Part shown: positions 49,762 through 54,324 of the stretch, piece after piece
How the letters are laid out: every line of letters begins with the position of its first letter
Position numbering within the stretch: position 1 is the first letter of the stretch
Assembly: GCF_040712075.1 (NCBI RefSeq)
Contig: NZ_JBFCVL010000004.1
Coordinates: 434,001 to 498,000 of the forward strand
DNA length: 64,000 nt
Reading direction: 5' to 3'
From: Fodinicurvata sp. EGI_FJ10296
GTDB taxonomy: Bacteria > Pseudomonadota > Alphaproteobacteria > DSM-16000 > Inquilinaceae
Translations under genes and position numbers: made by a program
Notes under the pieces: model-generated
The model's database searches: none
What the model saw: only the letters and a program-made list of their open reading frames with translations
What the model was told of the DNA's origin: nothing

Positions 49762-50976
49762 TCACGCTTCACGCATCAGCGTATGCTGGTCGACCAGATA
49801 TCGATCGAACAGAGGCAGACTCGCCGCCCCTAGCGCCCGGCCGATGGAGCCGATCGTGCCGGCCTCGATCTCGGGCATATCAAGGCCCTGCAGGTCGTGG
49901 GCGCCGATGGCGCGGCGGGTCGCCGCGACCAGCCGATCCCGAACATCCCGCGGCATGCCGCCATCGATCACCACCGCCTCGAAGTCGATCATCGATACAG
50001 ACGCTACGATGGCATGCGCCAGTCCCCGGGCGACGGCGGTGATCCACCGCTCGACATGATCGTCGATGGCGGCCCAATCGCCGGACGCCTGCCATAGCGG
50101 CGACGGATCCTGGCCGGCCGCCAGCAGCATGCGTTCCAGCACCAGCAACGAGGCCTGATCGATGAGCTGTTCGGGTTTGCCGCCGGGTCCGGGAACGGGC
50201 ATCGAGCCCAGCGCGCCGGCATTGCCCGTGCGCCCGGTATAGAGGCTACCGTTCAGGACGATGCCGCCGCCGATGAAGGTGCCGATGTAGAAATAGATGA
50301 AATCCTGTCGGCCCGTTTGATCGCCGAACAGCAGTTCCGCGGCACAGGCCGCCGTGGCATCGTTCTGAAGATATACCGGATAGCTGCAGACATCGGCGAT
50401 TTCCGCGCGCATGTCGACATGGCGCCACTGATCCATGGCGTCGGCGGGAGCGCCGACTTCCTCGTGCCAGTTCCAGAGTTGAAAGGGCATGGCGACACCG
50501 AAACCGGCGATCCGCTGGCGCAGATCGGCATCAAGCTCGTCTATCAGAGACTCCATACCTTCGGCCACGAAGGTGATAATGGCGCGCGGATCGGGAAAGC
50601 GATAAGCGCGACGGCATTTGCCGCGCACAGTGCCCAGAAAATCGATCAGTACCAGCTCGGCGCTCCGGCGCCCGACCTTGAGGCCCAGACAGAAGGCACC
50701 GTCGGCGTTGATCGACAGCGGAACCGACGGCTGGCCGACCTTGCCGCGAATGGGATCGCCCCTGATCAGCAAAGCCTCAGCCTCCAGCGCGCGCATGATT
50801 ACCGAGATCGTCTGCGCCGACAAGCCGGTCATCCTTGCCAGTTCCGTCTTGACCAGAATACCGTGACGACGCACCAGGCTGAGCACCAGCCGTTCGTTAT
50901 AGGCCCGCATGCCGCTCTGGTTCGAACCACGCAGCTGCTGGCCCCCGGGCTGCGTCAGCCCACCCGCTCCCACCAT
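49762..50976 (-). CDS. ROK family transcriptional regulator
   Basis: The 404-residue protein has an N-terminal winged helix (about residues 28-80, VKTELARMTGLSAQTISVIMRALEAE) and a ROK sugar-kinase-like domain with FCLGLKVGRRSAELVLID, YPVYLQNDATAACAAELLFGD and the catalytic FIGGGIVLNGSLYTGRTGNAGALG. The zinc motif CxCGxxGC common in ROK proteins is missing; GPGGKPEQLID follows instead. NagC/XylR-type members repress sugar operons and lose binding with sugar or sugar phosphate. It is divergent from the second CUT2 transporter, with a long palindrome in the gap. Confidence 0.88.
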   Translation of the reverse strand: MVGAGGLTQPGGQQLRGSNQSGMRAYNERLVLSLVRRHGILVKTELARMTGLSAQTISVIMRALEAEALLIRGDPIRGKVGQPSVPLSINADGAFCLGLKVGRRSAELVLIDFLGTVRGKCRRAYRFPDPRAIITFVAEGMESLIDELDADLRQRIAGFGVAMPFQLWNWHEEVGAPADAMDQWRHVDMRAEIADVCSYPVYLQNDATAACAAELLFGDQTGRQDFIYFYIGTFIGGGIVLNGSLYTGRTGNAGALGSMPVPGPGGKPEQLIDQASLLVLERMLLAAGQDPSPLWQASGDWAAIDDHVERWITAVARGLAHAIVASVSMIDFEAVVIDGGMPRDVRDRLVAATRRAIGAHDLQGLDMPEIEAGTIGSIGRALGAASLPLFDRYLVDQHTLMREA

Positions 50977-51100: not shown

Positions 51101-51145
51101 CACCTGTCAATCAATAAATCAGAGTGATTTGTTTATTGACAGGTG
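51101..51145. promoter_or_regulatory. 45-bp near-perfect palindrome, probable ROK operator
   Basis: The arms 51101-51121 and 51125-51145 are inverted copies of 21 bp with only two mismatches around the centre GAG. The core is AATAAATCA...TGATTTGTTT, like the AT-rich operators of NagC/XylR-type ROK repressors. It lies 124 bp from the ROK start and 109 bp from the binding-protein start, so it can control both genes. Confidence 0.7.
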
Positions 51146-51254: not shown

Positions 51255-52289
51255 ATGAAAAGATCCATTGCCCTTGCGTCAACGGTTCTCGGTACCGCCA
51301 TGCTTGCCATGGCCGCTACCGGGCCCGCGAACGCAGACGACCAGATCGGCGCATGCCTGATCACCAAGACCGATATCAATCCGTTCTTCGTCAAGATGTA
51401 GGAAGGCGCCACCCAGGCCGCCGAAGAGTTGGGCGTCGAACTGTCTACCTATGCCGGGCGCGTCGACGGCGACCACCAGACACAGGTCGCAGCGGTGGAA
51501 TCCTGCATCGCGGCCGGCGTCAGCGGCATCCTGATCACTGCCTCCGATACCAAGGCCATCGTCGATGTCGTGGAAACGGCGCGAGAGAACGGCATTCTGG
51601 TCATCGCGCTCGATACGCCGCTTGAGCCCATTGACGCTGCCGACGCGACTTTTGCCACCGACAATTTCAAGGCGGGCGAACTGATCGGCCAATGGGCCGC
51701 CGCCCAGCTCGGCGACGATGCGGCGAATGCCCGGATCGCGATGCTGGACCTGTCTGCCAGCCAGCCATCGGTCGATGTCCTGCGAAACCAGGGCTTCCTG
51801 ACCGGCTTCGGCATTGACGTCAACGATCCCAACCTGATCGGGGACGAAGACGATGACCGCATCATTGGTAACGACGTCACGGCCGGCAACGAAGAAGGCG
51901 GCCGCACGGCCATGGAGAACCTGCTTCAGGTCGATCCCGACATCAACGTCGTCTACACCATTAACGAGCCAGCCGCCGCCGGTGCCTATGAATCGCTGCG
52001 GGCATTCGGCCGGCAGGACGACGTCCTTCTCGTCTCGATTGATGGCGGTTGTCCGGGAGTGCAGAACGTCGCCGAAGGGATCATCGGCGCGACCGCACAA
52101 CAATACCCGCTTGAAATGGCTGCTCTGGGCATTGAAGCAATCGTCGAATATGCAGAAACGGGCGAAGTCGCCGAGCCGACGCCGGGTCTCGATTTTTATG
52201 ACACGGGCGTTCAACTCGTGACCGACCAACCGGTCGACGGCATCGAGTCCATCGATAGCGAAGAGGGCGCCGAGCTCTGCTGGGGGTAG
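51255..52289 (+). pseudogene. CUT2 sugar-binding protein gene interrupted by an in-frame TAG at codon 49
   Basis: The frame opens with an intact signal peptide (MKRSIALASTVLG... to NADDQ) and reads on through INPFFVKM, then meets TAG at 51399-51401 and continues without frameshift as [19 protein letters not shown] to a normal stop at 52289. In related binding proteins this spot reads FVKM-[K/R/Q]-EGA, so one base change (AAG or CAG to TAG) explains it. The rest of the fold ([16 protein letters not shown] etc.) is intact, and the permease and ATPase genes are intact. It is either a fresh nonsense mutation, a sequencing error, or a readthrough/suppressed codon. Whole-length it would be about 344 residues. 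Confidence 0.8.
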
Positions 52290-52453
52290 CAAGCAGGCAA
52301 GGCGACGGTACCGGGACAGGCGTTGCCGTCCGTCCCGGGGCCCGCTTTTCGCAAGAAGCGCCACATCGACACTGATTCCAGCAGATGACAGCCCGTTCCG
52401 GCAAGGCGGCGTTTCGGTGGTCAGCATTCGGTTGGGCGAAACGGGAGGACTCG

Positions 52454-53536
52454 ATGAGCAGCATCGACGAACGTGCCGACGGAAATCAGCGCTATGACGG
52501 AAGTGCCGATCTCGGCGGTCAAGGCACGGCCGAGTTCGAGCCGCGCCATCATTCGATCATCGACCGGATCCAGCATTTCCTCCACGGCAATCCGACGATG
52601 GTGCCCATCATCGTGCTCGTCGTCAGCATCGTCGCCTTCGGGTTTATCGCTGGCGATCGCTTCTTTTCGGCCTTCAATCTTTCCCTGATCATCCGGCAGG
52701 TGGCGATCATCGGCATCCTGGCGGCGGCGCAGAGCCTGGTTATTCTGACCGCCGGCATCGACCTGTCGGTGGCTGCGATCATGGTCCTGATGTCGGTGAT
52801 CATGGGTAGCCTGGCCGTAAATTTCGGCATACCGGCGCCGATTGCCATTGTCGTCGGGTTCGCGGGCGGCATTGCCGCCGGGGCGATGAACGGCCTTCTG
52901 GTGACCAAGCTGAAGTTGCCGCCGTTCATCACGACGCTCGGCACATGGAACGTCTTTTTCGCCGTCAATCTGTGGCTTTCCGGCGCCCAATCGATCCGCA
53001 GCCAATCGATCGACGAGCAAGCACCGCTGCTGAAGATCTTCGGGAACACCTTCAGCATGTTCGGTGCCCAGTTCTCGTACGGGTCGATCCTGCTGATCGC
53101 GGTGTTCGCCGCGCTCTGGTATCTGCTGAACCGTACCGCCTGGGGCCGGCACGTCTATGCCGTCGGCGACGACCGTGAGGCCGCCGAACTGTCAGGCATC
53201 CGCACCAACCGCGTGCTGATTTCCGTCTATGCGCTCGCCGGGTTCGTGTGCGCGCTGGCCGCCTGGGCGTCCATCGGCCGGGTTGGGTCGGTCTCGCCGC
53301 AAAGCTTCTACGAAGGCAACCTGCAATCGATCACCGCCGTCGTCATCGGCGGCATTTCATTGTTCGGCGGGCGTGGCTCGATCATGGGTCCACTCGTCGG
53401 GGCGCTGATCGTGGGCGTCTTCCAGTCGGGTCTGCGGCTCGCCGGGGTGGACGTCCTGTGGCAGGTGTTCGCCATCGGCTGGCTGATCATCATCGCGGTC
53501 GCCATCGACCAGTGGATAAGAAAGGTTTCGGCATGA
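52454..53536 (+). CDS. Sugar ABC transporter permease (CUT2 type)
   Basis: The 360-residue permease has a 55-residue hydrophilic N-terminal region followed by about 9-10 helices and CUT2 motifs: SLVILTAGIDLSVAAIMVL, KLKLPPFITTLGTWNVFFAVN, and ITAVVIGGISLFGGRGSIMG, the region that contacts the ATPase. GGAGGA lies upstream of ATG 52454. The gene is intact and is coupled to the ATPase (ATGA). It serves the interrupted binding-protein gene upstream. Confidence 0.92.
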   Translation: MSSIDERADGNQRYDGSADLGGQGTAEFEPRHHSIIDRIQHFLHGNPTMVPIIVLVVSIVAFGFIAGDRFFSAFNLSLIIRQVAIIGILAAAQSLVILTAGIDLSVAAIMVLMSVIMGSLAVNFGIPAPIAIVVGFAGGIAAGAMNGLLVTKLKLPPFITTLGTWNVFFAVNLWLSGAQSIRSQSIDEQAPLLKIFGNTFSMFGAQFSYGSILLIAVFAALWYLLNRTAWGRHVYAVGDDREAAELSGIRTNRVLISVYALAGFVCALAAWASIGRVGSVSPQSFYEGNLQSITAVVIGGISLFGGRGSIMGPLVGALIVGVFQSGLRLAGVDVLWQVFAIGWLIIIAVAIDQWIRKVSA

Positions 53537-54324
53537 CGGACGCGACCGGAAAACAACCCATGCTTTCGGCGCGGGGCGTGGTCAAACGCTATGGCCGCGT
53601 CGTCGCGCTCAATCACGCCGATTTCGAACTCTATCCCGGCGAGGTTCTGGCCGTGATCGGCGACAACGGCGCCGGCAAGACGTCGCTGATCAAGGCGTTA
53701 TCGGGCGCCATCACTATCGACGAAGGGGAAATGGTGCTGAACGGCGCGCCGGTTCGGTTCCAGTCGCCGATGGAAGCGCGCGAAGCCGGAATCGAGACCG
53801 TATACCAGACCCTTGCGCTGTCGCCGGCGCTATCGATCGCCGACAACATGTTCCTCGGCCGCGAGATCCGCAAATCCGGCCCGCTCGGCTCGATCTTTCG
53901 CATGCTCGACCGGACCCGGATGGAAAAGCTGGCGCGCGAAAAGCTGTCCGATCTGGGCCTGATGACGATCCAGAACATCGCCCAGCCGGTGGAAACCCTT
54001 TCCGGCGGGCAGCGCCAAGGCGTCGCCGTCGCGCGTGCGGCGGCCTTCGGATCGAAGGTGATCATCATGGACGAACCGACCGCCGCGCTGGGCGTCAAGG
54101 AATCGCGCCGCGTACTCGATCTCATTCAGGATGTGCGGGCCCGCGGTATTCCGATCGTGCTGATCTCGCACAACATGCCCCATGTGTTCGAAGTCGCGGA
54201 CCGGATACACATCCACCGACTTGGGCGGCGCCTGTGCGTCATCGATCCCAAGGCACACTCGATGTCGGACGCTGTCGCGTTCATGACCGGGGCCAAGGCC
54301 CCGCCCGAGACGGTTGCGGCGTAA
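53533..54324 (+). CDS. Sugar ABC transporter ATP-binding protein (FrcA type)
   Basis: The 263-residue single-domain ATPase has Walker A GDNGAGKT, signature LSGGQRQG, Walker B VIIMDEPTAALGVKE and H-loop ISHNMPH. This is the classical FrcA pattern (fructose/mannose/ribose importers). Its ATG overlaps the permease stop by 4 nt. It is the last gene of the operon; folE converges on it with a 60 bp gap. Confidence 0.93.
   Translation: MTDATGKQPMLSARGVVKRYGRVVALNHADFELYPGEVLAVIGDNGAGKTSLIKALSGAITIDEGEMVLNGAPVRFQSPMEAREAGIETVYQTLALSPALSIADNMFLGREIRKSGPLGSIFRMLDRTRMEKLAREKLSDLGLMTIQNIAQPVETLSGGQRQGVAVARAAAFGSKVIIMDEPTAALGVKESRRVLDLIQDVRARGIPIVLISHNMPHVFEVADRIHIHRLGRRLCVIDPKAHSMSDAVAFMTGAKAPPETVAA

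Follow-up and report, generated by a model that had tools for sequence, protein, structure and literature searches.

In Fodinicurvata sp. EGI_FJ10296, a fructose-type CUT2 importer has probably lost its binding protein to a recent nonsense mutation, confined to a single codon, in the frcB ortholog. The gene lies within a stretch of 64,000 nucleotides (the window, whose numbering is used throughout), in a frame of 345 codons that begins with ATG at 51255 and ends with TAG at 52287-52289. Codon 49 of that frame, read directly from the sequence, is also TAG (51399-51401), and the peptide around it is FVKM*EGA. It is this codon that deprives the gene of an uninterrupted frame: translation gives no second stop in the 344 codons before the terminator, in agreement with an earlier note on the same DNA, which had described a single in-frame TAG at codon 49 of 51255-52289. 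Most likely the codon results either from a sequencing error or from a mutation that recently abolished the gene's function, and is not a sign that the code is read in a new way. The features of the locus are as follows:

49762..50976, minus strand: ROK-family regulator (FrcR-like), 404 amino acids, divergent from the transporter genes; PF00480 (E 3.3e-25) plus HTH_24
51101..51145, no strand assigned: near-perfect palindrome, candidate operator, with 21-nt arms and a 3-nt spacer
51255..52289, plus strand: interrupted CUT2 sugar-binding protein gene, frcB ortholog, 344 codons plus the terminal TAG
about codons 1 to 27 of the frcB ortholog: signal peptide, judged by eye only
51399..51401, plus strand: in-frame TAG, codon 49; Lys or Arg in 91/91 orthologs
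52385..53536, plus strand: CUT2 permease, FrcC-like, 383 amino acids, open frame; PF02653 (E 2.5e-42); start taken from the list of open reading frames
53560..54324, plus strand: ABC ATPase, FrcA-like, 254 amino acids; PF00005 (E 1.7e-28); start inferred within a longer open reading frame, 53248-54324

That the interrupted frame is genuinely a gene, rather than a stretch left open by chance, follows from the part after the stop, which matches PF13407 by itself (E 3.5e-38). When the genome was searched with the read-through protein, the same place was returned (C4:485255-486286), at 100% and with 1 TAG inside. Searched against the Protein Data Bank, the protein finds its best matches among periplasmic sugar-binding proteins and ribose-binding proteins (84.4 bits at best), and no NCBIfam equivalog cut-off was reached. 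The identification comes instead from the locus, whose order and likeness match those of the frc locus of Sinorhizobium meliloti and of a Neorhizobium plasmid record with genes labelled frcB, frcC, and frcA. Sequence and gene order together, then, make it a frcB ortholog, and by orthology only, fructose would be its substrate.

In S. meliloti, frcRS is divergent from frcB and frcCAK, frcB encodes the solute-binding protein, and a separate inducible promoter lies ahead of frcCAK (PMC10433430). The window resembles this arrangement, with a divergent ROK regulator followed by binding protein, permease, and ATPase (compared with pSymB record CP090106.1), and its binding protein is 68% identical, over the best segment, to that of Sinorhizobium medicae (L128). 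It differs from S. meliloti in that frcB is broken by TAG, that neither a frcK-type kinase gene nor an RbsD/FucU-type gene adjoins the operon, and that frcB and frcC, as the genes are called, lie 95 nt apart rather than 281 nt. A lone gene for a FrcK-like kinase, 51% identical to the S. meliloti protein, does occur elsewhere in the genome (L167 2047-2718; contig C2:400064-400636), not beside frcA but near an operon for an Azt/Znu-type zinc ABC transporter. A second Frc-type transporter was considered there and rejected, as the neighbors of the kinase gene are the zinc-type ABC transporter, an EamA-type transporter, and a LacI-type regulator.

The arrangement is common among the 80 comparison loci, which were fetched by homology to the window protein. 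In 70 of them, as in the window, the ROK gene lies on one strand and the genes for binding protein, permease, and ATPase follow on the other; six of the remainder have the ROK gene reversed, two have no ROK match, and two have the binding protein only. The ROK regulator was matched in 76 loci (each time across 85% or more of its length), and the permease and the ATPase in 78 each, with median identities of 56% and 78.5%, respectively. The claim of the earlier note that permease, ATPase, and regulator are intact holds up: their frames are open, and they match their families and their relatives. In 5 of the 78 relatives the tblastn alignment of the permease contained stops; they fall without exception within query positions 21-34, where the N-terminus is variable, and we read them as the alignment overrunning the true start. 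The window operon is flanked by a PrpF-family gene and, on the far side, by genes for GTP cyclohydrolase I, ApaG, and an OmpA-family protein, these on the opposite strand.

In the interval that separates frcB from the ROK gene, the 45-bp palindrome (arms 51101-51121 and 51125-51145) is 90% complementary across its 21-nt arms. The palindrome described earlier is thus real, its function as an operator being conjectural. Of 75 stretches taken from upstream of the gene in relatives, 31 contained TTTATTGA or TCAATAAA in a crude scan that had no chance control. Similar AT-rich palindromes precede frcB in several of 25 relatives inspected. Perhaps they constitute a family of FrcR operators.

What do other frcB genes have at the position of the stop? 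The set of 91 orthologs (11 from a search of relatives and 80 fetched by homology, none from the same genus) has Lys in 68 cases and Arg in 23. Of the residues that had been attributed to relatives, Lys and Arg are thus borne out, but Gln appears in none of the 91. Nor does any of the 91 have a stop in its aligned part. It had been suggested that a TAG shared by relatives would speak for recoding; no ortholog shares it, and conserved recoding is unsupported, since all 91 have Lys or Arg in place of the stop. The search of relatives covered 96 genomes, including the strain's own, and among the matches listed the window gene was the sole one with an internal stop. Orthologs found in that search are 50-70% identical to the window protein, and those in the homology-fetched genomes up to about 77%. 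The search of the genus covers the strain's own genome only, and the nearest orthologs are too distant for an estimate of dN/dS on the recent branch. Plasmid records offered nothing closer. With the 4.7-kb locus as the query, the best place covered 80% of it at 70.9% nucleotide identity. The whole-locus query gave best places at 80-95% identity in 94 of 486 plasmid records, and these were entertained as possible close relatives, but with frcB alone as the query the matching records numbered 58, all at 60-80% identity. No near match to the 201 bases around the stop was found in the plasmid records.

Apart from the stop, the gene shows no visible decay. Differences from the closest ortholog at first, second, and third codon positions are 0.178, 0.125, and 0.416, as is usual where selection acts on a protein, but the bulk of this divergence would have to be older than any recent stop. 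The window protein departs in 5 of the 158 columns in which 95% or more of the other orthologs agree, where the others depart in a mean of 1.6 and a maximum of 9; its count is equalled or exceeded by 8 of 84. These results fit the earlier description of a gene otherwise intact, with no further disabling change to be seen. In protein trees, the terminal branches leading to the window are 0.188 for the binding protein, 0.130 for the permease, and 0.140 for the ATPase, and branches as long are found in 2, 10, and 12, respectively, of the 78 others. The ratio of the binding-protein branch to that of permease plus ATPase is matched by 8 of the 78, and by 13 of 21 in a stricter set of taxa. On this mixed evidence, the binding protein may have evolved slightly fast in the lineage of the window.

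One could take the long binding-protein branch, together with departures at conserved columns that exceed the mean of other orthologs, as signs of an older pseudogene or a slowly decaying locus, in which the use of frcB had been relaxed before the stop arose. We give this account very little credence. The 344 codons contain no second stop and no frameshift, and the count of departures lies inside the range of uninterrupted orthologs. The branches of the permease and the ATPase are long too, and therefore the lineage is divergent as a whole. Still, the same long branch, with a ratio on the high side, could hint at some relaxation before the stop even if the mutation is recent, and this must be set against a recent nonsense mutation, as must the dependence of the base on one assembly and the distance of the relatives compared, which is too great to bracket the age of the supposedly young change.

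A different possibility is that the UAG is suppressed or read through by program, so that an amino acid is inserted, some full-length FrcB is made, and the stop acts as a brake on expression. In favor of this, the frame after the stop retains its coding character, and relatives have Lys or Arg at the position, which we presume, by reference to ribose-binding protein, to be that of a surface residue. Moreover, Belinky et al. (2021, PMC7918605) propose readthrough for many in-frame stops in bacteria and argue that it is frequent. The orthologs, with no stop in any, speak against it, and so does the genome itself. Release factor RF1 is present and uninterrupted (the prfA match scores 489.7 bits against a cut-off of 423.25). 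The earlier note had recommended looking for an amber suppressor tRNA; no CUA anticodon occurs among the 43 tRNA genes found, in a survey that is incomplete, tRNA-Ile(GAT) and tRNA-Ala(TGC) being missing from it. ARAGORN reported two extra, overlapping tRNA genes (in L070 and L072), with anticodons agc and atg, which are probably spurious, and neither is CUA. The best of two matches to PylS, both below the cut-off, scores 32.1 bits where 178.15 is required. Pyrrolysine was rejected as an explanation, as 13 of 14 control genomes also give matches in this search, only 1 of them over the cut-off, and we read these as ordinary synthetase resemblance. The 100 nt past the stop show no stimulatory RNA structure, their predicted fold being a little less stable than that of shuffled sequences (z +0.98; 170 of 200 shuffles fold at least as well).

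Furthermore, the terminator of frcB is itself TAG, and 32 more codons follow it ahead of another stop; FrcB would thus be lengthened by 32 codons if amber were suppressed generally. The frame of GTP cyclohydrolase ends in TAG as well. Profile searches of the genome, which detect stops within the matched span only and are blind to frameshifts, found a stop in none of 148 matches to ABC_tran, none of 103 matches to BPD_transp_1, and one of 17 matches to PF13407 (14 of them over the cut-off), the one being the frcB ortholog; the 17 are not all binding proteins, since a LacI-type regulator on contig C2 is among them. Genome-wide or programmed decoding of amber codons is unsupported, and suppression or readthrough at this codon seems to us very unlikely. 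One might imagine a more elaborate version, a UAG kept by natural selection as a brake, where near-cognate decoding yields a trickle of FrcB that suffices for high-affinity uptake while the level of an otherwise abundant periplasmic protein is lowered and the operon kept. That idea we regard as highly improbable.

There is also the possibility that the base is wrong, through an error of base calling, assembly, or consensus, and that frcB is intact in the living strain. This is the main rival of a recent nonsense mutation and predicts the same sequence, but we hold it to be the less likely of the two. It would account for a frcB otherwise open, amid partner genes that are open and orthologs that are uninterrupted, and only one base separates the stop from the commonest codon at the position (found in 54 of the 91 orthologs). 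The assembly is, besides, a draft in 32 contigs. It is not visibly poor, however, as none of the 251 ABC_tran and BPD_transp_1 matches has a stop in the matched span, and its completeness and contamination are put at 99.44% and 0.4%. Of the three explanations offered in the earlier note, therefore, a young nonsense mutation and a base-call error fit the results, but a suppressed or readthrough UAG finds no support in orthologs, tRNAs, RF1, PylS, or folding.

The rRNA operons may also be absent from the assembly, since 16S rRNA, like tRNA-Ile(GAT) and tRNA-Ala(TGC), was not found. Draft assemblies often lose rRNA operons. The failure to match 16S rRNA anywhere in the genome says little in itself, because the same search, while successful in 9 of 14 control genomes, missed it in the other 5.

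Returning to a recent nonsense mutation as the preferred account, we infer all four of its elements: a genuine base, a failure to make full-length protein, a recent date for the change, and a loss of uptake. What the sequence itself shows is the stop, the open remainder of the frame, the open partner genes, and orthologs that lack the stop. Translation would end after 48 residues, about 27 of which appear, by eye, to belong to the signal peptide. Such a product would presumably be unable to form the binding fold, leaving no binding protein in the periplasm and a permease and ATPase without a receptor of their own. A TTG at 51429, 27 nt past the stop, opens an in-phase frame of 286 codons, but a product begun there would be expected to have no signal peptide and to miss the beginning of the fold. 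Production of the permease and ATPase would hinge on polarity and on the presence here of a second promoter of the S. meliloti type. The gene would be too young to show decay. To call the transporter present but blind, as was done before, is then fair, given that the frames of permease, ATPase, and regulator are open. Perhaps a paralog could take the place of the lost binding protein (there are six further matches to it in the genome, at 26-32% identity), but rescue of this sort is unlikely.

If the base is real, the strain would be impaired in high-affinity uptake of the fructose type with its remaining machinery intact, and would show the loss of a gene at its very first step. If the base is an error, the case is a lesson about draft genomes. 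Either way, what is known of decoding is unchanged: the gene is of a known kind and carries either a nonsense allele of the ordinary sort or an error. The case looks ordinary because, as Belinky et al. (2021, PMC7918605) report, stops within the frame are widespread among bacterial genes but short-lived, on the time scale of population polymorphism, and frequent in genes of carbohydrate transport and metabolism, which with 6126 cases is among the most abundant categories. Their cases resemble the one in the window, with a single stop and a coding signature otherwise kept. Their evidence differs in resting on stops common to at least two related genomes, whereas the stop in the window is known from one, and a substantial part of the raw cases, in their expectation, are artefacts (PMC7918605). 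A narrow search of the literature found no published case of a broken substrate-binding protein, and we do not claim that there is none. Elsewhere in the class, a FrcB ortholog with 67% identity is found in a genome of only 1.4 Mb (L010, G045), where it is the sole match.
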